Source: Nymphaea colorata (taxonomy: Eukaryota > Streptophyta > Magnoliopsida > Nymphaeales > Nymphaeaceae). Taken from it: 64,000 nt of DNA. The notes under the pieces are model-generated. The model had not been told where the DNA came from, ran no database searches, and worked only from the letters and a program-made list of their open reading frames with translations. Position 1 is the stretch's first letter. Each line of letters opens with the position of its first letter. A program made the translations under genes and the position numbers. The DNA lies in the NCBI RefSeq assembly GCF_008831285.2, contig NC_045141.1, positions 15,672,106 to 15,736,105 on the forward strand. The letters are read 5' to 3'. Positions 6,506 to 54,797 of the stretch are shown here, in pieces.

Positions 6506-7521
6506 AAGGGGTCGAATTAATGTCCAGGTAAAACTTACAAAAGTGTGATTTTACGTGATCATTTGACATTAAGAAAGTGTATGATTGTTTCATGAATATG
6601 CCTCAAAATCAAGAAAGATTTATAGAACTTTTGCACAAATGTTTCATGAATCTGCTCCTACTTTAAGACATGAAATGCTCACGCTATGTTCTTAACGCCA
6701 AACCCCAAAGAAAACTCTAAGGTTTAGTAAGGATCAGCAAAAGTTCATATGCAAAAAAGACAGAAATATGAAATTTTGGTAGGCATGGCTAGTAGTACTT
6801 ACTATCCAGTTTTAGCATGGGTCCGACCCGTTGACACTCCCGAGTCTACTCCGGCCCGCCCACTCGTCAAAACTTAGCCATGCAACTTGGCTTGTTCATT
6901 GTTTCTTCCTTTTTTTTTAAATTATAAACCGAAGTTCCCACTGAACTCTTCACCTTGTTCCATGCAGCTCTAGTCAAGCCCAATTTGTCAAAGTAGGCAG
7001 GTGGCACCGCAAGCAGACACGACGAGGCTCAGCCCGCCCCTCCCACGGTTTATTTATTTATTTATAACACAAAGACCCGGATCGGCCTAACTTTGACTCT
7101 CTAAATTTGACTTTCAATCAGTTCGGGACGTAGATACAGACCGGAAATTGAATTGCATGCTGGTCGAAAACTATGATACGTTTTAGAACCGATCTTCTGC
7201 ATTCAGTCTTGCATGCACATCCACTCCAATTTATAACTTCTGTCGGTCGATATCCATCGGGACTGCGCCACCAATCAACATAAACCACCGGAATTCCCAG
7301 CCGTTCTTTTGAGCGGCATCGGCATTGATCGGCCTGAGTTGGTATATATATATATATATATTGCATCGGATCATTTGCAAAAAGATGTCAGAGGATTTCT
7401 CTATTCACGTTATACATGTGGAGACGCAGACATACATACACATATATTCACACACACACACACACAGAGCCAAACTTGCTTGCAAAACTGGCAATACTCT
7501 TCTGCTATGTTTGTAAGTAGC

Positions 7522-7887
7522 GGAGCTCGAGAACCGCTTCCAAATCAGCTGCTATTGGTTTGCTGTGATGCCTTCTGTTGAACGTATCTCAATAAAGTGT
7601 GGAAGGGCATGACGAAAATCGAGGCTGTAACCTACTTATGCTGCTGCGTCTAATCTTTGTTCAGACATGTTAGACGTAAAGCTGCATCAATATTGTTTAT
7701 TCTATTCTTGATTGTAAAGGGAAAAACTAAGGTTTCTCAAATTTCTTCTTGATTCTTCTAACTGTTTTTACAGCATTTTATAAAGTGAACGAGACTCTTT
7801 CAGCATGCATCGTCTTCTTTGTTTTCCTATCTTCCTCTGGGTTCCCATCGCAAGCTCTGTTTCAGTCAGAGTGTTCTGTTCCTTACA
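7522..7887 (+). repeat. Left LTR of degenerate copia element
   Basis: This stretch aligns along its length with 9830-10185. Both begin GGAGCTCGAGAACCGCTT and both end with TTCTGTTC followed by TTACA. They differ by many substitutions and small indels, so the insertion is old. The right end is followed at once by a tRNA-Met-type primer binding site (TGGCATCAGAAC at 7888), which fixes this boundary. The left boundary is the point where similarity to the right LTR begins and is less certain. Confidence 0.85.
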
Positions 7888-9780: not shown

Positions 9781-9829
9781 TTAAGAAGCAAACTGGATGT
9801 ACATAACCTGTACACATACCAGTTTGAGG

Positions 9830-10185
9830 GGAGCTCGAGAACCGCTTTCAAATCAGCTGCTATCAGTTTGTTATGATTCTTGCTGCTGAGCATTACTGAA
9901 CACGTGTGAAAGGGCATTCGGAAAATTGAGGCTGTAACCGACTTATGCTGCTGCATCTAATCTTTGTTCAGACATACTAGAAGCAAAGCTGCATCAATAT
10001 TTTTTATTGCAAAAGGGCAAAAATAAAATTTCTCAAATTTCTTCTTGATTCTTCTAGCTATTTCTATAACATTGCATAAAGTGCGCATCTTCTATGTAAT
10101 AGAGTGAATGAGTCTTTCAGCCTGCGTCTTCTTTTTTGTTTTCCCATCGGAATCTCTGTTTTAGTCCAATGTTCTGTTCTTTACA
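9830..10185 (+). repeat. Right LTR of degenerate copia element
   Basis: This is the partner of the LTR at 7522-7887. It starts directly after a purine-rich tract (TTTGAGGGGAG) and ends at TTACA, the position that precedes the primer binding site in the left copy. It contains a short insertion relative to the left LTR near 10085-10105. Confidence 0.85.
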
Positions 10186-30900: not shown

Positions 30901-33900
30901 GTGGGAATCATAGCAACCTATTGCACCTTTGACAAACTATCGTGCAAATCATAACTATAATGTGCAGCATTGGCATATAAAAGAGCTCTAACGATTAGCA
31001 GCAGCAACTTTCTCCTCTAGGGAAAGGGATCAACTGTTCTACCTCCATGTGTTCACAACTACAGCACCTTGGGGTATTGTCAAACTCATGCGATGGACAA
31101 TATTTCTGTCCCCAGAAAGGATGCGCTCTAAACTCGACCATACCAACTCCGTTTACTGGAATCTGCAATAAAATGATCACAGAAGAAATTAAAGGATGTT
31201 TTAGACATTTAGTTAAGTTCTGGACAGCATTGAAAATAAGCAAGAGCACGTGCCCGTATTACAGGTGAGAAAACGGCGAACTCTTTAACATCTACTAAAT
31301 GAATAAGTTGTTAGCACCAAGTTCTAAGCCTGTGCATCAGGCCGGGTACCCGACAGGTACCCGATACCTGGCCCGACTCGGGCCTAAGAAATAGGCACTG
31401 GGCCAGCCTGATACCAAGTGGGCTTGATAAGTTATCGGGCCGGCCCGACTAAGCCCGATAAGACATTTTTAATATTTATTTTTATTGATCTCTATATATA
31501 TATAATTATAATATCTTATTACAATTAATTATATTTATATATTATTTTCTATTAACAATATATATTTTTAAATTTTAACCGGCTGGGGCCGGGCTTGGGT
31601 TTGGGTACTGGGCCAGGCCCGGGCCACCGATGCCCAGGCCTACCAAGTTCCTACATTTCCATGCCAATGTGCAAAACTGGAAGAGAATATTATGAATGAA
31701 CTGTAATAAAGTTAAAAAAAGAAAAAGATCATGAAGCTTGAGCAGGCCATATATAAAGAGAAAAAAATGATTTGATGCAAATAATTAAGTTTCGATAGAA
31801 AGATGTATTGGCACCAAAGTATCCATGAAAAAAGCTACTTACAAATTGCTTGCAGACATCACATTTGGGATGATGACACTCTTGATAGCAGGACTTGTGG
31901 TATGGGTAGTTCCCAGACATAGAAAACTATCCAACAAGAAAAATTAAAATAATATTAATACGTACAATGTGAGCTGACCATTGAAATATAAAGAGAGAGA
32001 TAGTATAGAACATGTGCAGCATTAGAGTGCTGCATACATAAAATAGCCACAAATTCAATAAATGACAGTCATCTATCCCAAAGTTTTATACCTCCATTTC
32101 ATATATAGGCTGATTGCAATAATAACAGCGAAAACATTCTGGATGCCAAAGTGCACCCATGCAATTCAGGAAGCGGTGATGACCAATTTCATTGTTGCAA
32201 CCAGCACATAACCTGTATAGATAGAGAGAGATGTCTAAAATGTGGCATTGTCGGAATACAGCTTCCACATCTATGATGAGTACATATGCATATGATTGAT
32301 TGGAGCAAATGGATACAGGAGATGGATACAGCAGCACTGAATGTTAACATTGCAATGCTATTCTAGGAATCAAGATAAAACAAGTCTGCTGCAGAAACAG
32401 AGAATAGATATATAACTAATAACTACAGGAAGCTAACTACGAACATAGATACCACAATGATAATGTCGAAAGGCCCAAGCTACAAGATTCCTCTACTACA
32501 TTCCAAGTAAGCGATGTTATTCACAGATCAGATCAAGAGTGAAAACCAAGATATTGGGTCTAGTAGACCAAAATAGCATCCAATCAACCTCTCATTCCAA
32601 AGCTTAGCATCCAATCAACCTCTAATTCCTCACTGAAACAACGCAGGCTAATTAAAATCATGATTTACATTTTTTTTATTTGTCACTTTCATATAAACAA
32701 TAAAAAACAGTCTAATTGATTTCATAGATCAGTACAAGCCAATTCTCGGTTCTTTTTGCAAAATAATTCAATCACAGCATCAATTACTAACAACATTGGC
32801 TTGATCTTACCAACGCTGCTACAATCAAGGAGATAAGAACAATTAATGGGATTCCAAGCCAAAAGGCCATTTTCCACACCGGAGGATTGACAGAGATAAT
32901 CATTTCTGGCCTTGACATCTCCACTGATTATAAAAGGAAAACCTATTCCCTGATGCATGCAGAACCATTGGTTCAATGAGATTCCAACCAAAACAGCCAT
33001 CAGTGTATATACAACCCACGGTTTTGCAATTAACTGAATGTGAAAATGATATGCTGTTAATGCATGGAAAGGCCTTGTGGACACAAAGGCCACTGCAGAA
33101 CACCAAACTCTAATATGTACTATGTAAAATATTATGGTCTACTCCAAACCACTGGAGAAATAAATTGAAAAAAAAAAAGAACTTCCTGCCAGACTGAGAA
33201 AGCCAGAAGCACCTTAATCCAGTCAGAAAGGGAAATGGAGGAGGCTGATGAGTATTATCATTTGCCCAAAGGGAATCCAAGTTCATACTTGCTTGAAGAG
33301 CTCTTGCAAGTTCCTCGTCTTCCTTTAGGTTGGGACCTATTTTGACAAGAACACAACATAAAGTATAAGACAAACTTCAGAACTCCTTTTTCCATGATTA
33401 TGATAATAGCAGGGAAAAAAAAATATATGAATGCAAGAAAGAGGAAAATCCACCAAGCAACTCACTGAGTAAGAATTAGAAATGGGTCAAATGGAACAGC
33501 AGATTTAAAAAGCATAATGGCCCTAAAGAAACCACTGGACACACACATATGCCATTGCATACAGATATAGGTAGATATGATCTAAGACACCTAAACCTTA
33601 AAATTAACCTTGAGCAAATTCATTTATTCAGAACTTTCAGTTCATCCAAAAGAGGTTACATTTTGACATGGTGAGTTTATGTGGCAACCATGTGATTGGA
33701 ACAGAAACATAGATAAAATACCTCAAGAAGCAGCTCTTCTGGCCATTAGAAGGAACAAAATGTCTTTAAAAAACTGATCAGCCTCATGATGTTGGAAGTT
33801 TTCATGAAAATAAAATGGTAAAGTTGATCGGTGTAATACTTAGTCATAATATAAATAAATAAACGAACAAATATTATATACATACATACATATATAGAAA

Positions 33901-37400: not shown

Positions 37401-40400
37401 CATAAGTGACAAAAAGAAAAAGAAAAACATGCAAAAGCAGAAAGTACTGCACACTGTTTCCTCCGTCCATGATATTCTTGGACAAAATTCTCAAAAGGAA
37501 CATTTAGATTCTCTGATTTCTTATTCCACAAGTTTAATGGACCCTCTTAAGAATGGCAGTAAGATTTCTCGAAAGCGCGAGAAGCGATGCCACGAGTCAA
37601 AATCTGATGTGAAATGAAGGTGGCTGTCTTACGTAGAAAGTGTTATCGTTCAGTATGAACATCTCCAGAAATGCTCGTCTTCTTCCAGATTGTGCTGTAA
37701 AGGAAGACTCAGCGATCTGGGAACTCAGTTTTTGCCGTTCCTTCATTTCATATATATATATATAAAAAATAAGCAACAGAATAATCAAAAGGTTGGTGCC
37801 TCTGCTCGCTTCCTTTTTTGTTGCTTTAGTTATTCCTTTGCCCCCACCGATGCATATCCCACGAACGAAAATTAGCTAGAAAAGTAGGTGGGCGAAAAAA
37901 TTTAGATGCTAAAAGACAAAGCACAGCATCAAGGTCTTAAAGGGATAATCTGATTGTCACATGGAATTTGTAATGATGCCGATGGATTCATGTAATAGAC
38001 TGCACGCTCGTTTCATGTCACGAATTTGTCACAAGATATATGTCCAATTGATGTGGTTTGCGTCATGCCATTTGTCAATTTCTGAAGATAAGATGATCAG
38101 ATCTACGATGGTATTGATCAGATTTTATGAGGATTTTATAATGAAAACAGTTAGTTTTGTTGACGCATAATGTATGTGATTTATTTTTTTCACTTTCACA
38201 TTTTAAAAAACAAGATTACATGTGACGCATATTTGACAAGGCACAACTGAAGGATTATTATTATTATTACTACTATTATATATATAAACTATCATCATAT
38301 GTAGTCTAATGGTATATGTAGATAGATCTACTAAATGGCCGTTTTTCGTCTTTGAAGTTTTATTTTGGATCATTTGTTTGAAAATAAAATCATGATGTTT
38401 TAACTCCATATATTTTGATGCACTATGAGTCATCAATCTAGCCAAAGCGTATGTGCAGCCCAACGCACACCAAAATTATGCTCGCATCGCATGAACCTAC
38501 AAGCAAGCAAGACGCCAAAAATACCGATGCAGCAACACGCAACACTATTGAAAGAGGACGTGTGGCTTTTGAATCCTTGGAGAGCGCCTAATCACAAAAG
38601 GTTGCCGACCCCTCATCGTCGGTGAAGAACAGCCATGTAGGCGCGTCCTCGATCCAACACTAGTCTCACCACACTCCAAAAGGCGATTGTAGAGGCGAAG
38701 GAGACCCACACAGCACCTAAGCCCTGCACGAGACTGCGGAGGATGAGCAAAGCAACCAAGAAGCATGCCGCCGCCGGCATTAAAGTCACGATGGCAGGAA
38801 GCAGCACCGCCGGAAAGAGGAAAGGTTGCCGGAAACAATGGTGGGATGGAGCCTATCTGTGCATCAATTGGCACATTTTCGATGAAGATCTCTCTTCCAC
38901 TGGAATCCTGAGAATGGTTAAAAGATTACTTACATTGGATGAATTCAAATAACATGACGTTTGCTTTTTGAGGTGTTGAGATTTTTTAGAGGCATAAATT
39001 GCCTGTGAGACAGAAATTCCTCTGATTGTACAAAAAGATATTAGCTCCTCAGTAGAGCTTGCTTGTTTTTGCAGTTTGAGGTAGTAGGATTCGTTAAAGA
39101 TGTAAAATAATTCCTGCATTCATATATCAGACAAATTTAGATAACTAAAGAAGCAATTTACAGTTTTTTTTTTTTTACCTAACTTGGATAGAATGTGTGT
39201 ATCTCCTTGCTTATTTGTTACAAACATCAACTTTGGTTGCACATATCCTTGAAAACTTTGTCTCTCTGCCTGTGCTCTTCTGTCATAGATATCTTTGAAG
39301 GCCTGGTAGTGATATCAATGATTGCTAAGTGGATTCATTGTGCATAAGAGGTTGTTCTTTCAGGCCTTTGCAGAATGTGTCTCTTGTTGTGATTAACCTT
39401 GCACTTTTGGGACCAGTTTGAGCAATCTTAATTTTGCTTTCAAGATATTTTAAATAATAATATGGATTCATTTCCATTTTCACAATAGATGTTTCCCACA
39501 TTTGGACAATGCAGAAAGGAAATTTGAATATATGGCCTCATCAAAGTGGTACAGGAAAGAGAGAGAAATCACTCATTTCTTCGCAATGAAGTCAAGGTCA
39601 AGGCAACATTTTCTTTATATAGTAGCAACTTCCATTTTACACTAATAGTAAGATATAATATCATGATACATACATCTCTTATACCTATCGAAATGTTTTT
39701 GGCCTTTAATTATTTTTGTATTGACGGTTGGAAGAAATAGAACAAAAAACTAAAGTTGTGAATTAACATTAAATTAGTAAAATGTCATATCTTCTTTTCC
39801 CCCATCTTTCTCCCAACCATAATAAATTTTCTGTTAGCTATGGTTTATAGTGTGTGATAGTTTATAACGACTTTAATGATGATTTAATAAATTTTAAATT
39901 TTAGTCATCCAACAACTATCCAGCACATAGCAGATATATATATATATATATATATAAAATTGATTTTTGACTCATCCTTGTTTGACAGATTTTGAGCTGT
40001 CGACTTAGAGCACACCATTCCATGATTCTTTAGAATGGATCTCCTGTAAAGTAGTTTAGGTTAATCAAGTTCTATTAGATATTTCTTAGACTAAATTTTC
40101 ATGCCATACCTTTTGGTATTTTAGTATCTTTTTTGCTTTGAAAAGAAAGTACTAAAATGCATGCTCATATAACCAGATTGAACTTTTAATTACCAGCCCA
40201 TTGATTTCCTTATGCATAAATATTTAATAACTAACATTAGTAAATATTTATGGGAGTTACTAAAATGCACTTTTGAGACATTTCATATACTTTTTCAAAA
40301 TGCATACCGATTATCCTTACTGCAAAATATATACCTTAAAATTTAAAAACCGGACTACTTAAAATAGATAACCATAGTGTTCTTTGTGCAAGTTAATTTA

Positions 40401-41090
40401 CAAATATGATTTTTCGAGAAATCGATAGGAAACATATATTAAGTCAATCACTTTTTGAGTCAGAATGCATATGTTTACCTACAAAAAAACTAATGATTCG
40501 TATAGCATCAAAACTTTGATAGTAGATGAAAACAACTCGAACTAAAACTAAAGTATACTTTACTTTAATACTAATTAGTATTTATAAACATGTTAGTATA
40601 TCCATATTTTGTTTAAAATACTTTTTTTAACTAGAATTTATACAGTTCATTCGTTTCTAATCTAATTTCCAGGTACCATGATGATCGAGATCAAACTTAA
40701 ATAGTTAAGTTAAGAATGTAAGGCATGGCTCTTGGGACGAAAAAGTATAAATAACGCAACCTCTTGAAACAACAAGAACATCTTCTCGTTATGCTGCTTT
40801 AATAAAAGAACAGCTAGGAAAAAGCAATGCAATTACTTTTGTTTTAATAAATAACGCAACCTCTATCCGTTCTCGCAAAAGCAATTAATGATCACGATTT
40901 CCTGATTATATGAAAAATAATCTGCCAGATTCCTGGACTGCTTTCCCGATTCAGAGTACATGCCATAAGTGCTGTTAAACTTAGGAAACAATCAATTTGA
41001 GGTTAAATTTTTCTAAGGTTGCAATCTCCTCTTTTCATGGCATACAAAATAAAAGGTGCACGGGTTTAAGTTGAACCATCTCCTAGTTTC
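34415..41090. other. Upstream region of the DA1-type gene and AT-rich intergenic DNA
   Basis: The first part (to about 36200) should contain the 5' leader exon(s) and promoter of the DA1-type gene, but I could not fix them. Beyond that no gene was recognised. Short TA runs occur at 37748-37762 and 39936-39955. A GC-rich island at about 38540-38850 has open frames on both strands. The minus frame 38613-38807 is strongly hydrophobic and may be a relic of a membrane-protein gene. Confidence 0.45.
38545..38874 (-). pseudogene. Possible relic of a membrane-protein coding sequence
   Basis: A GC-rich island in AT-rich DNA has overlapping open frames. The minus frame at 38613-38807 (64 codons) contains two long hydrophobic runs, one from residue 4 to 20 and one around VSFASTIAFWSVVRLVL, then a basic end. 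No start context, domain or neighbouring exon supports a working gene. The family is not recognised; the call rests on composition only. Confidence 0.2.
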
Positions 41091-41093
41091 ATG

Positions 41094-41260
41094 CAGTGGC
41101 GGAGCCACGTTGTGATTGGTGTGGGCAGTTGCCCACACCAGTCTCTTAAAATTTATTTATTTTCAAATGGGCATCTTTAAATATTTGTCCTCTGTCCCAC
41201 CAAATATAAGTATTTTTAAAGGAGCGTCCCCCCATCTAATTTTTTTTTGCTCCGCCACTG
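41094..41260. mobile_element. 167-bp hAT-like MITE with 8-bp target duplication
   Basis: The ends are inverted repeats, CAGTGGCGGAGCCA at the left and TGCTCCGCCACTG at the right. A perfect 8-bp direct repeat GTTTCATG flanks it (41086-41093 and 41261-41268). An internal GTGTGGGCAGTTGCCCACAC palindrome follows the left end. Degraded relatives appear at 54634-54797 and, as the palindrome alone, at about 54409-54430. The 8-bp duplication indicates the hAT superfamily. Confidence 0.9.
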
Positions 41261-43382
41261 GTTTCATGCACTGTCTTTCTGAGTTTCAAGCAAACATGCT
41301 TGCTGTGCTACTCCCCAAGTTCACTGGACGGCATTTAGCAAGAGGGGCCGGGGCGCCACCGGGTGATGTCGGCCTGAGCATTTTCCGGTCAAACAATGAC
41401 CACAGAGGATTTGCACAAAGCCTCTTCTCTCTGTTTACACTTGCACTGCTACCGGGAAAAAGGCCGAGAAAGTCACTCATGTTCAGGCAACTCCAGTTGA
41501 CCCATTTCTCCATCAGTGGGGAAGTTAATCTTCATTACTTGCCAATTCAAATGTTGGCCTACGGGTTCCTCTTATTCTGAATCGAGCAATAATATCATAG
41601 ATGAACCAATCTGAGGAAAAAGATTCCAAGAATTACACATGGTAGTTGATATGATAGAAAAGCAGATACTCCTTCGGCCTAGGCATGGCCGATGCTTGCA
41701 AAGTAATATAGAAGATCTTATTGCAATAGAGGAAAGTTATGATTACCAAAGAACCATAAAATCAAGATGACGGGCGTTCATAGTTCTACTATGAATGACC
41801 AAGGTCTATCACAACTTCTTTGATTCTCATAATCGGGATTTTTTCTCTATATAGTCCTTGTTTTTCTTTAAGAGAAGAGTTTAATCGAACAAGTGTATGG
41901 GAAAAAGCACGCACCCCTTTATCTCATGGGTTGTACCCTTTCGTGCAACAGTTACGAAAATGCAGTAAACTTATGTTAAATTATGAAACGTGCATTAATC
42001 TCATGGAAATCATTGAATGCAATATTGCAGATTTGGGCCAAAAATAAAACGAGAAATTAATGAATTTTCTCGATAATGCAAGAGCAGGTATCCTCGAAGG
42101 CTGAGCACTTACTCGTGAAAAAATGGCCTGCAAGATCCGGGCGCAATTGCCCCTACTGATATTTTCACGAAATATTACAAAAATTTCTTTCTAGACTGTG
42201 ACTCAGGCAGCTGGATCAACCAGGAAGAGTGACGACTGAATGGCGTGAATATTAAAACAACTTTCGGGAACGATTGGCTGGAAAAGTTGGCAACGAAAGT
42301 AGAAAAGCAACAAGTGAGCACCTCCAAATTTGGATAGTAAAGCCACCAAAAAAACTAAACGAGAAATTAATGAATCTCTAATTACCAAAAAATAAGGGGA
42401 ACATTTGGGCCCTTCTCTATCTCTCTTCGGAAGTATCCCTGGCCCTGCCTTTTTCTATTTGTTGAGCCTTGTTTTCTTGATGCGCAAACTGTCACCATAA
42501 TAGGAAGACGATGGCAATAAGGTTTTCCTACAAAGGGCCGGCTACCCACCGGGTATGGTTTGGACCAAAAAAATTAAGGGTGGGCATTGGATCGACCCGA
42601 TCTAACCCATCGGGCCGGTGAGCCAGGCCTGGTCGGCCTGATTGCACGAGTGTTGGCCCCGGTCAGACCTATTTAAAATTTAAAAATAATTTTTAAAATT
42701 ATAAAATTAATTTTTTAATACAAAATATATTTATTAATAATAAATATCTATTATTAAAAAAAATTGAAAAAAAAATTATTCTTAACGGGCTAAACGGGCC
42801 GGCCTATCGGGCCCGGGCCCAATCGGTCCGGGCCGGCCCGGCCCAGCAGCGGCCGGGTCCGATGCCTACTCTGGGAGAAAACAGCCCGGCGGGCTGAGAA
42901 AATGGACCGGCGGGCCGGGCTTGGGCCTGATGTGCGGCCCGGCCCAGTTCGATCGGCACGTTTATAATTAAAAAAAATAAATTTTTAATTTTTTTTAAAT
43001 TTAATAATATGTATTTTATTATTAAAAATATATTTTATATTACAAAAAAATTATTTTATAATTAAAAAAATTATTACCAAACAGGCCGGGCCGGGTCGAA
43101 ACCCTGGCTATTGGGCCGGGCTTGCCCAGGTCTAGGTTTTCCCACGTAAAGAACACCAGTTTAAATTCCACTAAACATTGGCACTAAGCATTGGCTCTCC
43201 CCTTCAGCTCCTCGTTTGTGTTCAAGTGCATTTCTCCAAACCTGTCAGGGAAGAACATGGTAATAGAACCGCAGCAGGCGTTGCGTTGTGATACAACTAC
43301 TGTGGGAAATTGTGAGAGACCTCTTTACTCAATCCAGCCGGTTTAGAAGGCAGTACCGACAGCTTTGAGTAAGAGTTGGGAA

Positions 43383-43444
43383 GTGTGAAACTCATTCTGG
43401 CCAAATTGCCGTCGTGTGAAACTCATTCTGGCCAAATTGCCGTA
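43383..43444. repeat. Two-copy 31-bp tandem duplication in the left arm
   Basis: The unit GTGTGAAACTCATTCTGGCC plus AAATTGCCGT and one more base is present twice head to tail. The matching part of the right arm (about 43690-43720) has one diverged copy, so the duplication arose after the inverted repeat formed, or was lost on the other side. Confidence 0.85.
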
Positions 43445-44081
43445 GGCAGAATTGAATGAGGTGCTAAGGAGGGGTGGAGAGCTCATGGAAATTTGTAGCA
43501 AAGTTTTCCGCTGGAACTTCTTCAAACAAAAGAGGTATTTTTCCATGTCTAGCCCGTTGTGTCACCCGGCCCGGCCCGTTGCCGAGGTCTAGCATGGAAT
43601 ACTTCTTTTGTTTGAAGAAGTTTCAGTGGGAAATTTTGCTACATTTTTCCATGAACTCTCCGCCCCTCCTTTGCACCTCATTCGATTAGGCCAACCGCAA
43701 TCTGGCCCGAATGAGTTTCACACTTCCAACTCTTGCTCAAGCCGCCGGTACTGCCTTCTAAACCGGCTGGATTGAGTAAAGAGGTCTCTCACAATTTTCC
43801 ACAGTAGTTGTATCACAACGCCTATAAATGCACTTGAACAGAAAATCAAAAGAGGAGCTGACAGGTTTGGAGAAAGGCACCTGAAGGGGAGAGCCAATGC
43901 TTAGTGGAATTTAAACTGGTGTTTTTAAGCGGCTGGCCAAGCAGGTCCGTTTGGTAATAATTTTTTTTTAATTATGAAATATTTTTTTAGTAATATAAAA
44001 TATATTTTTAATAATAAAATGCATATTATTAAATTTAAAAAAATATTTTTTTTTTTAATTATAAACGTACCGAATCGAACT

Positions 44082-44230
44082 GGGCCGGGCCGCACATCAG
44101 GCCTAGGCCCGGCCCACTGGGCCGGGCCGCACATCAGGCCCAGGCCCGGCCCACTGGGCCGGGCCGCACATCAGGCCCAGGCCCGGCCCACTGGGCCGTT
44201 TCTCGGCCCACTGGGCCGTTTTCTCCCAGG
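44082..44230. repeat. 37-bp GC-rich tandem repeat in the right arm
   Basis: Three copies of a 37-bp unit start at 44082, 44119 and 44156. Each begins GGGCCGGGCCGCACATCAGG and continues into CC(T/C)AGGCCCGGCCCACT. A 20-bp derivative (GGGCCGTTTCTCGGCCCACT) follows at 44193. The left arm has the corresponding sequence only once, near 42918-42955. Confidence 0.9.
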
Positions 44231-45439
44231 GTGGACGTTGGGCCCGGTCACCGCTGGGCCGGGCCGGCTCGGGCCCGATAGGTCGACCTGTTTATCCCAT
44301 TAAGAATAAAAAAATAATTTTTTTTCAAAATTTTTTTAATAATAGATATTTATTATTAATAAATATATTTTATATTAAAAAATTATTTTATAATTTAAAA
44401 AATTATTTTTTTTAATTTTAAATAGGTCTACCCCGAGCCAAAACTTGAGCTATCGGGCCGAGCGTGGGCCGAATCAAGCCGATCTGATTTCTACTCTTAG
44501 TTTTTTCGATCCAAACCCAAACCCGACCGGACCGAATACGGGGTACCCGGTAGGTAGCGGGCCCGTTGTAGGAATCGTCTTCCTCGTTATGGCTTCCCGA
44601 TTATGGCAACAGTTTGCGCATCAAGAAAACAAGGCCCAAATGTTCCACTTATTTTTGGGTGGAATCCCGTTTACCCACTTCTAACTTGCATGATGTCATT
44701 ACCATTTTTGTGTTGTTCCTTACTGAAGATCTATACCTTGTTACTATAGAATCAAAGAAAAGGTTTCCAGCAAATCCAGGGAGCACAAAGTAAAGAGTCC
44801 ATTCACGTAAGAAAGATGCAAAATGAAGAGGGATGAGCCACACAGCAAAGGTTAGAAGGAAAACAATGCTAATCCTTTTTTTAGCTCCTAAAATGCTTGC
44901 AACAACAATATGGGCCTAGTGGAGTTTGTTCAGGTTTTCATAGTATTGGTTAGTAGCAGCAGCCAGCAGGCATTCAGAGACATCACTTGTTCTAACACTA
45001 GTAAAGGAACACCTAAGACAATAGTGCGAAGAATGCGAAGAAAAGGGGAAGGAAAATGAAGAAGAAATAGAATGGGGAAGAAGATAGCTGGCATGCAATC
45101 AGGGGGAGAAGAATGACCTAGAACTGTGTACAGATAGGAGGTCAGAGCTTGTAATGTACTCATGGACCGTAGACCATGCTAAGAAACTAATGATTCCAAA
45201 ATGGGCACAAAGTACATATGGCATAAAGTAAACTGTGAATAGCTATAACATTAGGACAAAGAGTTTATTTAGTACTGAGAGAATAACACTCGATCTTGTC
45301 AAGCATCATAACATGTTTTGGCTCTAGTACAAATGAAAATGGCTATAAAACATACAGAAGCTGGCCTGAATAACCTCATTATTCACATCAACCACATAGA
45401 AAGAGATAAGAATGGTAATACAACCGACTAGGAAATAAC

Positions 45440-46767
45440 CTGAAAGCACTTGGAGATTCTTGATTTGTCTCTTATGGAAACACATCCCTTTTGAAGGATT
45501 TCCTGAAACCACAGAATTTCCTGATAGGTCTTGGCATGCAAAAAAGAGTGACTGTGGACATGTAATGAATTCAAAACTCTCGCACCGATTAAAATTTTGC
45601 ACAACAAGAACGGCTGAGAGAAATACATTACCTGGTGATAACGCATAGGATGGATATTTACAGCTTGGGGCATGTAGAAATCCTTGTTTAAAGGCATAAT
45701 CACATCTGGCATCAGTTTCTTGACAAAATCATTAGTTACAATTTCAAGTTTGCAACTCTGAAGGTGGTGCCGAGCTTTCTAACAGTTTAAAATGAACCCT
45801 TTTTAATATTAGTATCGCTTGATTCAGCAAAGCAAAATACTAGACCATTCACCAAGAAAATTATGACCTCGGTCATTATATCCAGATTCTTTATTTTGGT
45901 TGCAGGTCTTATGATTCCCCTGCAACAGAAGAAACTATGACTATAACTAGGAGCTGCGACTATAACTAGGAGCTGCGACACATTACTGCACACAAAGACA
46001 TTTAGCACCAAAAAGAACAAGAAACAACATAAACAACTAATTTTTGAAAAATCACTTAGCATGTAAATTAAGTGACCACATGGAGTCAATCTTCTTGATG
46101 ATAACATTGCTTTGATAGGTTATATTTACTTGTCTTTTACCACTTATATAGACCAAGAGCAGGGGGAAAACAAGTTGATTATCTACGCCAAAAGTGGAGA
46201 GAAGACATGGTTGTGCAACTTAGCTTGAGGAAGAACATGGTTTAGTAACATTTTTAGTAAATTAAATAAAAGGACCTATATTTGTAAACAGATAGAATGA
46301 TTCAAAAACAAATGATCATTCAAAATGCCTACAAGGTCAATATAGGAGAGATGCGTCTTTCGTTAGATGTCCAGTTTCAAAAAGTGGCAAACCTTCTCCA
46401 GAAGATTGGCCCATTAAAATCAATGGTATGATAAGAAATGTCGTTGTTCCAACTTGAAGTCCTAGATTGCACTGCAATTTCTGCAACCCTTAGCAGCTTC
46501 ACAGCCTCTTCCCAGCATTCAGCTCCTCTCCACAAAGGTTTGACTGTAATATACAACCAAAGAAAAGCTGAAACAAGTATAATTCGTGAAACAGTACAGA
46601 ACAAAGCAATGTTTCAGTTTTAGTCTGGAATCACAATGATAAATGTAGGAACTCATACCTTTAGGGGAGTATGGATGCACAAGCCCTCCTGCAACCCCAG
46701 AAGCACCACCTCCAATACCAACCTCATCATAGATATCAACATGCAGATCTGTATCCCTTGCACTGAG
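45440..46767 (-). CDS. FAD-dependent (DAO-type) oxidoreductase, five internal exons only
   Basis: Five exons join in phase on the minus strand: 46659-46767, 46393-46543, 45868-45919, 45632-45778 and 45440-45551. They match the plant family of predicted plastid FAD-dependent oxidoreductases with a DAO fold (Arabidopsis AT5G48440 type), whose substrate is not established. Landmarks are IYDEVGIGGGASGVAGGLVHPYSPKG, then VKPLWRGAECWEEA, the strand GIIRPATKIKNL, FYMPQAVNIHPMRYHQ and LFFACQDL. The splice sites look normal. I could not find the upstream exon with the GxGxxG dinucleotide-binding loop in good form, nor the C-terminal exons between 45440 and the inverted repeat that starts at 44658. The locus may be a truncated pseudogene, or the remaining exons may lie farther away. 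Confidence 0.75.
45951..45988. repeat. Two-copy 19-bp tandem duplication
   Basis: GACTATAACTAGGAGCTGC occurs twice in direct succession inside the intron upstream of the GIIRPATK exon of the FAD-oxidoreductase locus. The polypyrimidine tract and acceptor of that exon are outside it. Confidence 0.8.
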
Positions 46768-49250
46768 CTGCATAGCAGAGAATTTTTTTAGTACCTAAAT
46801 TGCTTAAGCACCACAAAGAAAAGTCATCACAAGGACCTAGATCTTGCAAAAACATGATCCTATAGTACATAACCATAAAGTAATTGAACACTTGAAGAAG
46901 CTACCGGTTTAATTCACCAACAGAGTGAGTAAGCCGTTCAAATATGCCAGTAGTGTACCAATTCACAGTACAGACATTTACGTATGTAATTCAACAATAA
47001 ATAATGCTTATTTCATAAGACTTACAAAGTGGACACAAATTGCATTCTGCGTTTGTGGCTTGGAAGAAATTTAGTAGCATCTCAAAAAAGTTCAGGCTGC
47101 TATTTTTGCATCTGCTCTACAGAGGTCATTGACCTATTAAGAATCAAGGTCATCTAAACTGCAGTTTATATCATGCTTGAATTGTCTCTGCTGATTCCAA
47201 TGGAATGTGATGGTAATCTTGATTCAGTACATTGGTTACTAGGTGCAGGTGTAAAGAATGCCTTATTAGGTTCATACTTTCTTTTTACATTTGCAAATTC
47301 ATTTTAGAAATACACATATTTTTTACGACATGGAGGAAGCTGATCTGACAGCAACAAAAGGCCTTTGTTTCTTTTACAACTTAAGGCCATTGTGTTTCTC
47401 CAGCATTCAATTTGAGGCACTTATAAGTTATTAACTAATTTTATTTACCCAAGGCAAAGGAGAATGACACAAACAAGCTCATGATCATACAGTCCTTCGG
47501 ATACCTACATTTAGTTCTTAAGCATATTCCACTCGTCTGAACATGGCAACTTTATTAAAAAACATCTGAACTCTCTTCCCTTGTAGAAAAGCTGACAGGA
47601 ACAAGTGCCAGCCCTTCCATTCCGCAGTGTAACTTTTGCCACGGTGTCGTGCTCTTAAGTTGTGGCACACAGGGCTGACGTCATTATAAAAGAAAAAGAG
47701 AAAAAAAAAAGTTGATAGCATTGGAGTGGACATTTTTTCCTTCCATAACAGGGAAACAAACTATAGAAGTCGATGCATACCAGCATCAGAAACTCAAAGT
47801 GAGTGAAGTCAGATATGAGCTAATAATATTGCTTGAGTGGCAACAACTTCAATACCCAATAAACCAATTAAAGTTAGACAGCCAAGTTGAATGAGAATTC
47901 TTTTCTAGGATTGCAGGAAACAAGCAGCATCAAAATGTGTTGCTTATCAGTTCTAATCAAAAGATATCAAAACAGCAAATCAGCTAGCATCAAGGATGAA
48001 CAATGACATGGGGATTTAAGAGATAACAACATGTTTCTCGGCTTATATTGGTATTACTGAAGAATAATATGAAGAGAGAAAAAAACTTTGAATCCAACAA
48101 AACTCTTGACAACCATTAGTTGAATGTATACTTGGTTCTGCCTGACTCGCGTCAAGGGAGAGACACTTTTGGGATGCATGAACTCTCAGGCATCTGCACA
48201 AAAGTTGCAAAAGCATGAGTTTCATTTATCTTAGCTCACTTCTTCCTTCTACAAGATATCCACTGTTTACATTTACGTCCATGTGATGAGCCATCAGAAA
48301 ACCAATTGAGCTCTTGGAATTAGGCCTCAAAACAGGTGTTGAATAACTCGTACGCAGTACAATGCAACATCTGGTTCCACCATTTAAGGATGTCGTTGCT
48401 TAATTTGCTCTGAAGTTCTGATGCCTAAACGAAGGTGATCACAGAGAAACAACAAGTTTAATTGCCATCGTGTTTTTCACTATTAATATTTGATGGCCAT
48501 TCTGATTTTAATGATCGGTGCGGATGTGGCTAATAGTTTTGATATGCCAAATCCTGATCAAGTGAACAGTAAAACTAAATTAATTACGGACATGAATTTG
48601 AAAAGGAAAGGAGTCAGATGTGGTGGTTTGTCAAATTTATAGAAAACGGAATCACTTGGAAGAGCAGTAGTGTTTCAAAAATCCTATAAAATGTTTATGA
48701 AGCTGATATATAATGGGCCTCAGGCTTTGGCCTCTCTTACTCTTGAGATATTGAATGGTTTGTAGACATACGTAGGAGCTTATTTCTGCTTGCACACTGC
48801 AAGGTGCACGGGCAGTGAAAGTAAAGTACTTCACAAGATTAAACCTTATAATTCTAATTTTGGGTGAGCTGGGAGAACCATTGCCTAGTAGAGAGCCGAG
48901 GCGCCCACCTAACCCCTTATCCCCATAAAATACAGAACCTGCTTTTGGTGCCGCTGCCCCTCCGCGCTTCAACCTGCGCATCATCGACTTCTCTTTTGCA
49001 GCACAGTAGGTTGGTACCTCTAACACTTAAAATGGAGGCTAGTCGCTTATCAGCCGTCACCTTAAGCAGCTGTGCCACCCCCGAGGGACCGATTAAACCT
49101 TGTAATCAAGAGACAAAATTAATGCATGCAATAGCCCTCAGGTTGTGTACATTGTTCATCCTAATCATGTCTGCCTGTAAATTGAGAAAAGCTCAATTAA
49201 TATATAGGTCTTAAAAGTGCATCAAGAGCTTGGTTTGAACATTTTGAGAA
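46768..49250. other. Region upstream of the FAD-oxidoreductase exons
   Basis: The 5' exons of the FAD-oxidoreductase should lie here. A possible decayed GxGxxG exon is at about 47575-47650 on the minus strand. A stretch at 48136-48194 (minus) follows a plausible acceptor and reads as a Ser/Ala-rich, transit-peptide-like segment. A GC-richer island at 48860-49100 is open on both strands (minus 48652-49026; plus 48864-49214). I cannot assign these to a gene with confidence. Confidence 0.35.
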
Positions 49251-51122
49251 ATTTGTAGCCAATTTACAGTGCCTCAACGATATAACTCTAAAGACGGATT
49301 TATTGGTTTCGTACTTAAAGAGAAGTACTTGATTAATTGATAAAACTTAGAAAGAAAAGACAGTTTGAAAAATACCTGGAGTTATGCGGGTCGCCTTTCT
49401 GGAAAAGGCTCCTGCACCCAATTAAAAATTAACAATAGCTTATGTATTTTTGTTTTAATAGGAGAAAGAAACATGGAACACTTAAAAGGCTCACCTATAT
49501 AATTGAAGTGGCATAACTTGCAGTCAATGCTGTTGTAAATGGCAAAAGTAAAGTTCCCCTTGTTTTTGTTACATTGAATGAAGGGGCAAGTGGAGACTTG
49601 ATCTTCATTATTTAATCGATCATTAAATTTTAAGGGTTGGTTCCAACTTCCCATCATTCAGGGTCTTATAAGAGTATTTACCTAGGACATTTATGAGTGC
49701 AGTTGGCTCTAGTTAAAATATGTGCAGTGAATCGGATGCGACGTAACTTAATTTCAGCAATGCTGTACTTCAGAAATCGAACTTTCGATGTTCTTCTGTC
49801 TAGCTTCGAATCCTTGAAACGTGATCAGCATAGTTCAGAAACCCTGGCATCACATCCTTAAATTAATCAGTTTCAACGACATAATAGGATTCATAAACTT
49901 TAAAATTCATTTGAAATTTTATGTATAATTTCTGAGCTAACATGCAAGTAAAGGTTCGGGATCATATAGATAACATCTATACAGTTAAAAAAACTGATCA
50001 AAAAATGTTTGGTTCATGAAATATCGATCGCTCTGCACAAAAAATGTGCAGTTACAATGTACAGATCTCTTCTCTGAAACAAGATAGCAGCTGTTACATG
50101 TCTTGCCAACCATCACCCTTCCCTCTAGCTTGTTCATATCTGTAATTAAAAAGTAATCTCTCTCTCTCTCTCTCTCTAGCTGCACCATTTTTAAAGAAGA
50201 CAGCCAATGCAGGGGCTTAACATTTGGATCATTATATTTCATTTAACCCTAGAACAATGAAAATATGTCTTCAAGCAATCCATCTTATTTTAGCATCTAT
50301 ATTTTGATCTGTGTGACTAGCAGCAGTTCAAAGTAACCTAAGGAGTCATTTGGCAAATGGAACATTTTGTAAGTATTCCATGAATCTAACTTAAAGATTA
50401 AGACAAATTTATGGACACCTCGTCCTTGTATTATATGAATCTCCTCAAATCTTTGGGGTAAATTCGTGGAACACTTATCAAGTATTCATGCTACCAAACA
50501 ACCTCAAATTGAACATTTGGTAACCAGAATACTGAGAAGAATATATACAAATCTTTGGGACAAATTCATACAACGTTAATACAGTGTTCTTATTATCAAA
50601 TGCACCTATTAAAGGTTCAATATGATTCCCTTAAGATCAGCATCTTTGTTTTTTTGATGTTCGAACGCCTTGATCGAACATATGGATTCAGCTAAGGTTG
50701 GGATATAAGGACTAACTAGAAACGTGAGGCACAAAATTCAGCCATGCTAGGTGAGATGTGCCAGCTGCATCTACCATCAGCGTTACGGGTCACGAGATCA
50801 TTGTAATTTCCCGTTCAACTTAAGCAAACCAAAGTTCTTTATTGAATATAGATGTTGTAAGAAATTGAGTATTTCGTCACTTGGGATGTTGTGCACTTTG
50901 TTAGAAACATGGTATTATACATCTTTCTATTAACAAACTATAGAATACCTGACGTCTTGTTAATTTCGATCGTGATGCATTAATTAGTTCACAATTATAA
51001 ATCAAGATTTACATATTTATCAAGTTTCTGTCCCTTGCAACATGATGAACATAAGTTCAACTGTATATCTCATTCATAATGCCTTCAAGTACCTCATTGA
51101 TCAAATTTTTGTCATATAACTA

Positions 51123-54633: not shown

Positions 54634-54797
54634 GAGCGTAGCCACATGGTGACTGGTGTGGGCAACTGCCCGCACCAGTTTTTTTTTTAAAAATTTATTT
54701 TTAAATGAAAATCTTAAATACTTATCCTTGTAAGTGTCGCATCATATTTGAATATTTTTAAACAAATGTCCTTCCAGCCAATTTTTTTTGGCTCATG
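54634..54797. mobile_element. Degraded relative of the 167-bp MITE
   Basis: GAGCGTAGCCACATGGTGACTGGTGTGGGCAACTGCCCGCACCAG-type sequence at the left and TTTTTTTTGGCTCATGG at the right follow the same order and spacing as the element at 41094-41260, including the GTGTGGGCA palindrome and the AAATTTATTTTTAAATG body. The termini have decayed and no target duplication is visible. Confidence 0.65.

Follow-up and report, generated by a model that had tools for sequence, protein, structure and literature searches.

An inverted repeat of a chimeric RPW8-like pseudogene in Nymphaea colorata, best read as a duplication in place and a possible source of small RNAs

In soybean, the candidate I allele GmIRCHS carries a tail-to-tail, 1,087-bp pseudoCHS3 inverted repeat with a 78-bp spacer; it is fused behind part of a DnaJ promoter, is prone to rearrangement, and has been linked to natural RNA silencing of CHS (excerpts of PMC13051633). 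For the microRNAs (miRNAs) that target NLRs, a passage of PMC10575705 gives inverted repeats of NLR parts as the probable starting point, and pseudogenes of rice give rise to small RNAs, with two cases involving adjacent paralogous pseudogenes (sections of PMC2708354). Here we describe an imperfect inverted repeat of ~2.3 kb in a 64,000-nucleotide stretch of the Nymphaea colorata genome (contig C4, NC_045141.1, positions 15672106-15736105; hereafter the window), each arm of which contains a broken piece of an RPW8-like resistance gene. The reading we favor is that a chimeric RPW8 pseudogene was duplicated and inverted in situ; a fold-back transposon fits less well.

The window repeat resembles GmIRCHS in its ~1.1-kb arms, its spacer of 31-58 bp, and its tail-to-tail pseudogene, and its outer fragment bears some similarity to what is, by eye, upstream sequence of another locus. 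It differs from GmIRCHS in that its family is RPW8 rather than chalcone synthase, its arms are ~10% diverged and interrupted by a hAT-type element, and it is known from sequence alone. With NLR-targeting MIRNA loci, as treated under the inverted-duplication model of Allen (parts of PMC10575705 and PMC3237417), it shares an inverted resistance-gene part that has open-frame relatives, but that part is RPW8 coding sequence and the stem is long and of the small interfering RNA (siRNA) type, not a short precursor. Like the paralogous pseudogenes of rice, it consists of neighboring copies able to form double-stranded RNA (as given in a portion of PMC2708354), whereas its copies are fused as one chimeric palindrome. 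No published RPW8 hairpin locus was seen in the open-access literature searched for RPW8, inverted repeats, and siRNA, where the sole RPW8-bearing match among the papers listed was the review PMC10575705. The locus is new, and the kind of structure is already known.

The two arms (A, ~42384-43554, ~1.17 kb; B, ~43586-44660, ~1.07 kb) are collinear, and their blocks follow the same order. In the arm alignment (42392-43562), 826 of 922 aligned positions are identical and the 96 mismatches comprise 58 transitions and 38 transversions. Its score of 992 compares with a mean of -214 (maximum, -183) for 50 Markov-shuffled arms and with -57 for the reversed arm, and this is the sole inverted pair within the window at E 1e-6 under low-complexity filtering. 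The original prediction of an imperfect inverted repeat, with arms of 1.16 and 1.07 kb around a 46-bp spacer and similarity out to about 42385 and 44658, was confirmed. As traced here, the spacer is 31 bp by alignment, and 58 nt separate the best inner arms in a repeat search (126 nt, 87% complementary). As RNA, the repeat folds at -1400 kcal/mol, compared with a mean of -669 for 40 dinucleotide shuffles (standard deviation, 12.4) and a mean of -547 (minimum, -815) for 25 other window stretches of the same length; 850 of the 949 base pairs span the center, and the central helix has 45 pairs. Exact complements in arm B exist for 97 of 1,160 arm A 21-mers, and perfect helices of 52, 41, 32, and 31 bp remain between the arms, the first being the longest perfect run. 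Divergence by indels and local amplification, as had been proposed, is evident from 33 gap openings, from slippage traces in both arms (in arm A a 31-bp sequence is perfectly duplicated in tandem, and arm B has a 37-bp array of ~3 copies), and from 57 bp of arm A that are absent from arm B near its outer end. Because the arms have diverged and their indels are asymmetric, a simple assembly artefact is an unlikely origin for the repeat.

The inner part of each arm, noted in the original prediction as a 400-bp part unlike the GC/AT elements, is a broken RPW8 coding region, an identity that emerged from comparison with three related loci (L020 to L022). The L021 protein, used as a tblastn query, matched arm A on the plus strand and arm B on the minus strand (E values in Table 1); the RPW8 copies therefore lie tail-to-tail. 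The RPW8-like share is ~250-420 bp per arm, the rest being leader, hAT element, and outer fragment, and the reading frames are broken, with frameshifts and stops in arm A. An open piece of arm A scores 18.0 bits (E 0.0023) against Pfam RPW8 (PF05659), under the cut-off of 30.4, and is thus a broken fragment and no gene. Since a control of this profile gave a sub-cut-off match in 1 of 14 named genomes (Thermotoga), weak RPW8 matches carry little meaning. When 10 open frames in or near the repeat were compared with Pfam, no family was found, bar two chance-level matches of one frame.

Genome searches covered 407.8 Mb in 783 contigs. A search of this genome with 43140-43600 as sole query found relatives confined to contig C4 (5/5 candidates scored), namely the loci L021 and L022 and another inverted repeat, which we call X. 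L021 and L022 are single-orientation loci, 1.1-1.2 Mb distant; their open frames (155 and 165 codons, respectively) reach 49.3 and 50.6 bits against PF05659. Across the genome, 20 of 22 RPW8 matches exceed the cut-off, and 16 of the 22 fall in clusters at C4:16.855-16.896 Mb (6 matches) and C3:21.52-21.64 Mb (10 matches). Elsewhere on C4, RPW8 pieces at 25483204-25483371 (minus strand, 2 stops) and 25485495-25485602 (plus strand, under the RPW8 cut-off) lie 2.1 kb apart in divergent orientation and are possibly a third inverted pair.

The GGCCCGG-rich block that separates the outer fragment from the leader is, judging from its target-site duplication (TSD), a hAT-type element that itself harbors another, nested element. 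The arm A copy is flanked by the exact 8-bp TSD GGTTTTCC (42521-42528 and 43135-43142), and the X arms, which are without the block, have a single undivided GGTTTTCC-type site at the corresponding point. The right end of the block reads TAGACCTGGGCAA in reverse, the terminal inverted repeat (TIR) of genome copy L007, and the left end has diverged. L007 is 300 bp long, with TIR TAGACCTGGGCAACGGG and an exact TSD, CTCAGCAC; in L003 a comparable pair shows a single TSD mismatch, and the other four of six genome copies checked showed no TIR-TSD pair at the criteria used. The nested element has a TSD in arm B (GTTTTCTC and GTTTTTTC, 7/8 identical by eye) that is eroded in arm A. A genome search with the whole repeat gave 81 matches from the 40 that were scored of 507 first-look candidates. 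The block resembles hAT miniature inverted-repeat transposable elements (MITEs) in its 8-bp TSD, the family TIR TAGACCTGGGCA, the 300-bp copy L007, and its many genome copies, and it differs in being a nested composite with one end diverged. The hAT element therefore either predates the duplication or was copied between the arms. The evidence favors an option raised earlier, that of a duplicated, inverted segment carrying older MITEs. A further relative, a hAT-type miniature element with an exact 8-bp TSD (CCAAGTTC) and TIR TAAGCCTGTGCATC/TAGGCCTGGGCATC, lies at 31325-31642 of the window.

The edges of the repeat bear on how it formed. Window positions 42366-42432 are 60/67 identical to C4:15382968-15383034 (L054), after which the two diverge, and L054 serves as a near-empty site for the left edge. 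Homology between the window and X starts at 42428-42432, within ~5 bp of that divergence point, and the coincidence of the two places the junction between host and core there. In a correction to the original prediction, the outermost ~49 bp of its left arm are flanking host DNA. Of this host DNA, the initial 29 bp recur inverted at the outer end of arm B, and the segmentally duplicated right flank starts at the arm boundary and continues to the end of the query at 47600. Because host DNA lies inside the inverted arms, duplication in place is indicated rather than transposition.

The sequence itself shows four steps in the history of the repeat. A fragment similar to upstream sequence of another locus is joined to an RPW8 5' part at the C4 site; a hAT-type element with its 8-bp TSD occupies the leader and contains a second element; the segment, with ~30-50 bp of host DNA, occurs twice, tail-to-tail around a short spacer; and the two arms show ~10% difference, with slippage in addition. 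The inversion itself may have come about in a repair event involving fold-back or template switching, which may also have produced the segmental rearrangement on the right. To the left of the repeat, 38440-42369 is a patchwork of pieces that each resemble a different site in C4:15.31-15.50 Mb (~81-95% similarity), and within it 38440-38917, 3.5 kb left of the repeat, matches DNA 0.8-1.4 kb from X. By these similarities, the neighborhood of the repeat is rearranged.

X lies at C4:15494956-15497487 (L020:3457-5988), ~217 kb from the window repeat, and its RPW8 copies are tail-to-tail. Its arms are ~1.1 kb long, 89% identical by BLAST, and ~370 bp apart, and the X arm is a mosaic of matches to C9 (75%), the L021 gene (80%), C2 (92%), and C11 (89%; 9/9 candidates scored). 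The C9 piece (L053) lies, by eye, upstream of an ATG; the outer core matches it at 76/102 positions in X and in short pieces in the window. The outer cores of X and the window are 74-80% similar, the X arms end on the outside in a further 28-32 bp with no counterpart in the window repeat, and no empty site for X was found. The inner parts of the X arms are 415/424 identical (98%) and the outer parts 571/617 (93%; Fisher p 1e-4), and the higher identity of the inner parts can be read as gene conversion. For a four-arm alignment, the hAT block was first excised from the window arms, which left 361 gap-free columns for pair counts. Of these columns, 40 unite the arms within each repeat, as against 2 and 2 for the cross pairings; 214 are identical, and 103 fall outside all clean patterns. 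A six-sequence tree splits the window arms from the others with a support of 100; arm B is partly poorly aligned, such that the window arms are 79% identical in the 238 six-sequence columns versus 90% when compared directly.

If transcribed, the window repeat would yield a hairpin RNA holding RPW8 sense and antisense sequence. The earlier suggestion of a small-RNA or young MIRNA-like locus may hold, and it gains in specificity now that the inner part is recognized as an RPW8 fragment with open-frame relatives. Read-through or arm-borne transcription could produce a long hairpin that is cut by Dicer-like enzymes into siRNAs, which would mostly be of 24 nt and act on hAT copies and the locus itself, while 21-22-nt RNAs would have a residual effect on the closest RPW8 genes. 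We scanned ~4,500 possible 21-nt window guides against 11 RPW8 loci, counting those paired at positions 10-12 under a psRNATarget-like scoring scheme. At a penalty of <=3 there were 29 guides for L021, 12 for L022, and 8 for C4_16875, the best L021 guides (43473-43520) having a penalty of 1; the other eight loci had no window guide at a penalty of <=4, and the single control, L021 reversed, had 0. X gave 183, 58, and 35 guides for the same three loci, penalty 0 included, as well as 2 for C4_16861 and 4 for C4_17104. With each of six hAT copies, the window repeat has 5-47 21-mer positions in common, and those listed lie in AT-rich stretches. Since it shares 21-mers with these copies but with none of the four RPW8 loci so compared, its siRNAs would sooner act on hAT copies than on RPW8 genes. 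Rfam matches in 38000-50000 (7 up to E 1) were all under curated cut-offs and were treated as chance.

On this basis, we regard siRNA production from the window repeat as an even proposition and present-day silencing of RPW8 genes by it as improbable. Such silencing by X is a somewhat less than even prospect, and X is the stronger candidate trans-silencer. A bolder idea, which we hold to be rather doubtful, is that RPW8 genes have repeatedly and independently been made into hairpin loci on C4 (the window repeat, X, and perhaps 25483204/25485495), each with a borrowed upstream fragment, and have been retained as a trans-acting siRNA brake, with X active and the window repeat its decayed predecessor, so that the two would mark successive stages in the birth and death of hairpin genes.

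Several observations weigh against the in-situ duplication account, in either its structural or its small-RNA part. The window lacks the target DNA that lies to the right in the near-empty site, and insertion and inversion are for that reason not fully separable. The view that the outer 28-32 bp of X may be local flank rests solely on their mismatch to the window, and tree support for placing the two X arms together is 53. The longest exact match between the window repeat and the 11 RPW8 loci is 14 nt, compared with 31 nt for X (to L021), and no 21-mer is common to the window repeat and any of L021, L022, L043, and L046. Finally, the hAT element separates any arm-borne promoter from the coding part, and the transcript could therefore be dead. 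With these points weighed, the structural account of the repeat is, in our judgment, very probably right, and the full explanation, in-situ duplication together with a possible siRNA hairpin, is likely.

The strongest competing view is that the repeat is inert debris, a transcriptionally silent palindromic pseudogene in a rearranged region. Arm divergence, the many gap openings, stops, frameshifts, and patchwork flanks all fit such decay, but long perfect helices persist, and comparable pseudogene repeats in other systems have been linked to silencing (excerpts of PMC13051633 and PMC2708354). We give this view a substantial chance, though one short of even.

Less well placed is the view that the window repeat and X are both duplicates of a single ancestral RPW8 inverted repeat, with arm-to-arm gene conversion making the arms of each alike. 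Two repeats of the same gene with the same tail-to-tail layout on one contig, the near-identical inner parts of X, and the recurrence near the window repeat of a piece close to X all speak for it. Against it, the inner ends and the flank DNA inside the arms differ, the hAT block is present in both window arms and in neither X arm, and over the 238 columns the similarity of the X arms to the L021 gene (82%) exceeds their similarity to the window arms (71-77%). We think it unlikely, and because inner ends and flanks differ, independent inversions of the window repeat and X seem the better-favored, probable course.

A fold-back or Pack-type (MULE-like) transposon would have the outer ends as termini and the arms as long TIRs with captured gene fragments, the window repeat and X being two insertions. 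The X arms do hold chimeric gene pieces, the arms are inverted, the outer core is common to X and the window where the flanks are not, and Pack-MULEs with captured gene fragments are known (a passage of PMC3310237). However, the window arms hold host flank that the paralogous site has without the insert, and the X arms include outer sequence not common to the window. When the outer ends were used as queries, no repeat family emerged, and besides the window only the right-flank duplicate and the near-empty site were hit (3/3 scored each); X was also missed, which leaves room for a diverged family. No direct TSD above chance was present at the outer edges, where an inverted flank copy is found instead: the best 8-/9-mers have 2-3 mismatches, and the best 9-mers, with 3 mismatches in the window and 2 in X, are no better than random, 2 or 3 having arisen in 220 of 300 random placements. 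The fold-back transposon, one of the original suggestions, is thus very unlikely. A functioning MIRNA-type gene, in which DCL1 would process the central fold (43414-43723) into a dominant small RNA against a conserved RPW8 motif, has the inner arms, the central helix, and the penalty-1 L021 guides in its favor but is highly improbable, as most miRNA precursors have a far shorter stem than the window repeat and the sole Rfam miRNA hint is mir-5886 (E 0.0097, 30.8 bits versus a cut-off of 85).

Table 1. Features of the window repeat and its flanks (window positions)
Feature	Position	Strand	Basis or remark
Host flanking DNA, outer end of arm A	42384..42432	+	Paralogue C4:15382968-15383034 without insert
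Outer unique part, arm A	42433..42528	+	Common to X, more weakly to C9 sequence; last 8 bp are the left TSD
hAT-type element, GGCCCGG block, arm A	42529..43134	+	TSD on both sides; undivided site in X
Second hAT-like miniature element, nested, arm A	42575..42874	+	By eye; ends TAAGGGTGGGCAT / CCAGAGTAGGCAT
RPW8-like pseudogene 5' leader, arm A, with small duplications	43135..43284	+	Alignment
RPW8-like pseudo-coding region, arm A	43285..43554	+	tblastn 43285-43538, E 4e-17; frameshifts, stops
Perfect 31-bp tandem duplication within arm A pseudo-coding region	43383-43443	+	
Inter-arm spacer, GGCCCGG inside	43555..43585	.	Arm alignment
RPW8-like pseudo-coding region, arm B	43586..43825	-	tblastn 43825-43596, E 4e-15; tail-to-tail
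RPW8-like pseudogene 5' leader, arm B, approximate	43826..43945	-	Arm alignment
hAT-type element, arm B, one end deleted, limits approximate	43946..44574	-	37-bp array at 44079-44198
Nested hAT-like element, arm B	44226..44499	-	By eye; TSD 44218-44225 / 44500-44507
Outer unique part, arm B	44575..44631	-	57 bp of arm A missing here
Inverted host-flank copy, outer end of arm B	44632..44660	-	28/29 identical to L054
Right flank, segmental duplicate	44649..47600	+	93% to C4:15376281-15379271, opposite orientation

Elsewhere in the window, open frames match a GT8 glycosyltransferase, a DA1-like fragment, and a POX-domain protein in Pfam. A direct repeat pair at 7519-7787 and 9827-10083 is 80% identical over 269 bp, with its members ~2 kb apart, and a ~170-bp repeat at 41094-41267, which has many genome copies, recurs in direct orientation at 54636-54794.

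Arguments on how plants come to control resistance genes by small RNAs usually start from miRNA families that are already complete. The window repeat and X may represent two stages of the proposed starting point, a resistance gene duplicated in inverted orientation, and open-frame relatives are found on the same chromosome. With a datable hAT insertion and a near-empty site, the order of events is partly readable, and the silencing prediction is testable. Should the locus prove silent, it would be a clean example of chimeric pseudogene palindromes forming and decaying.

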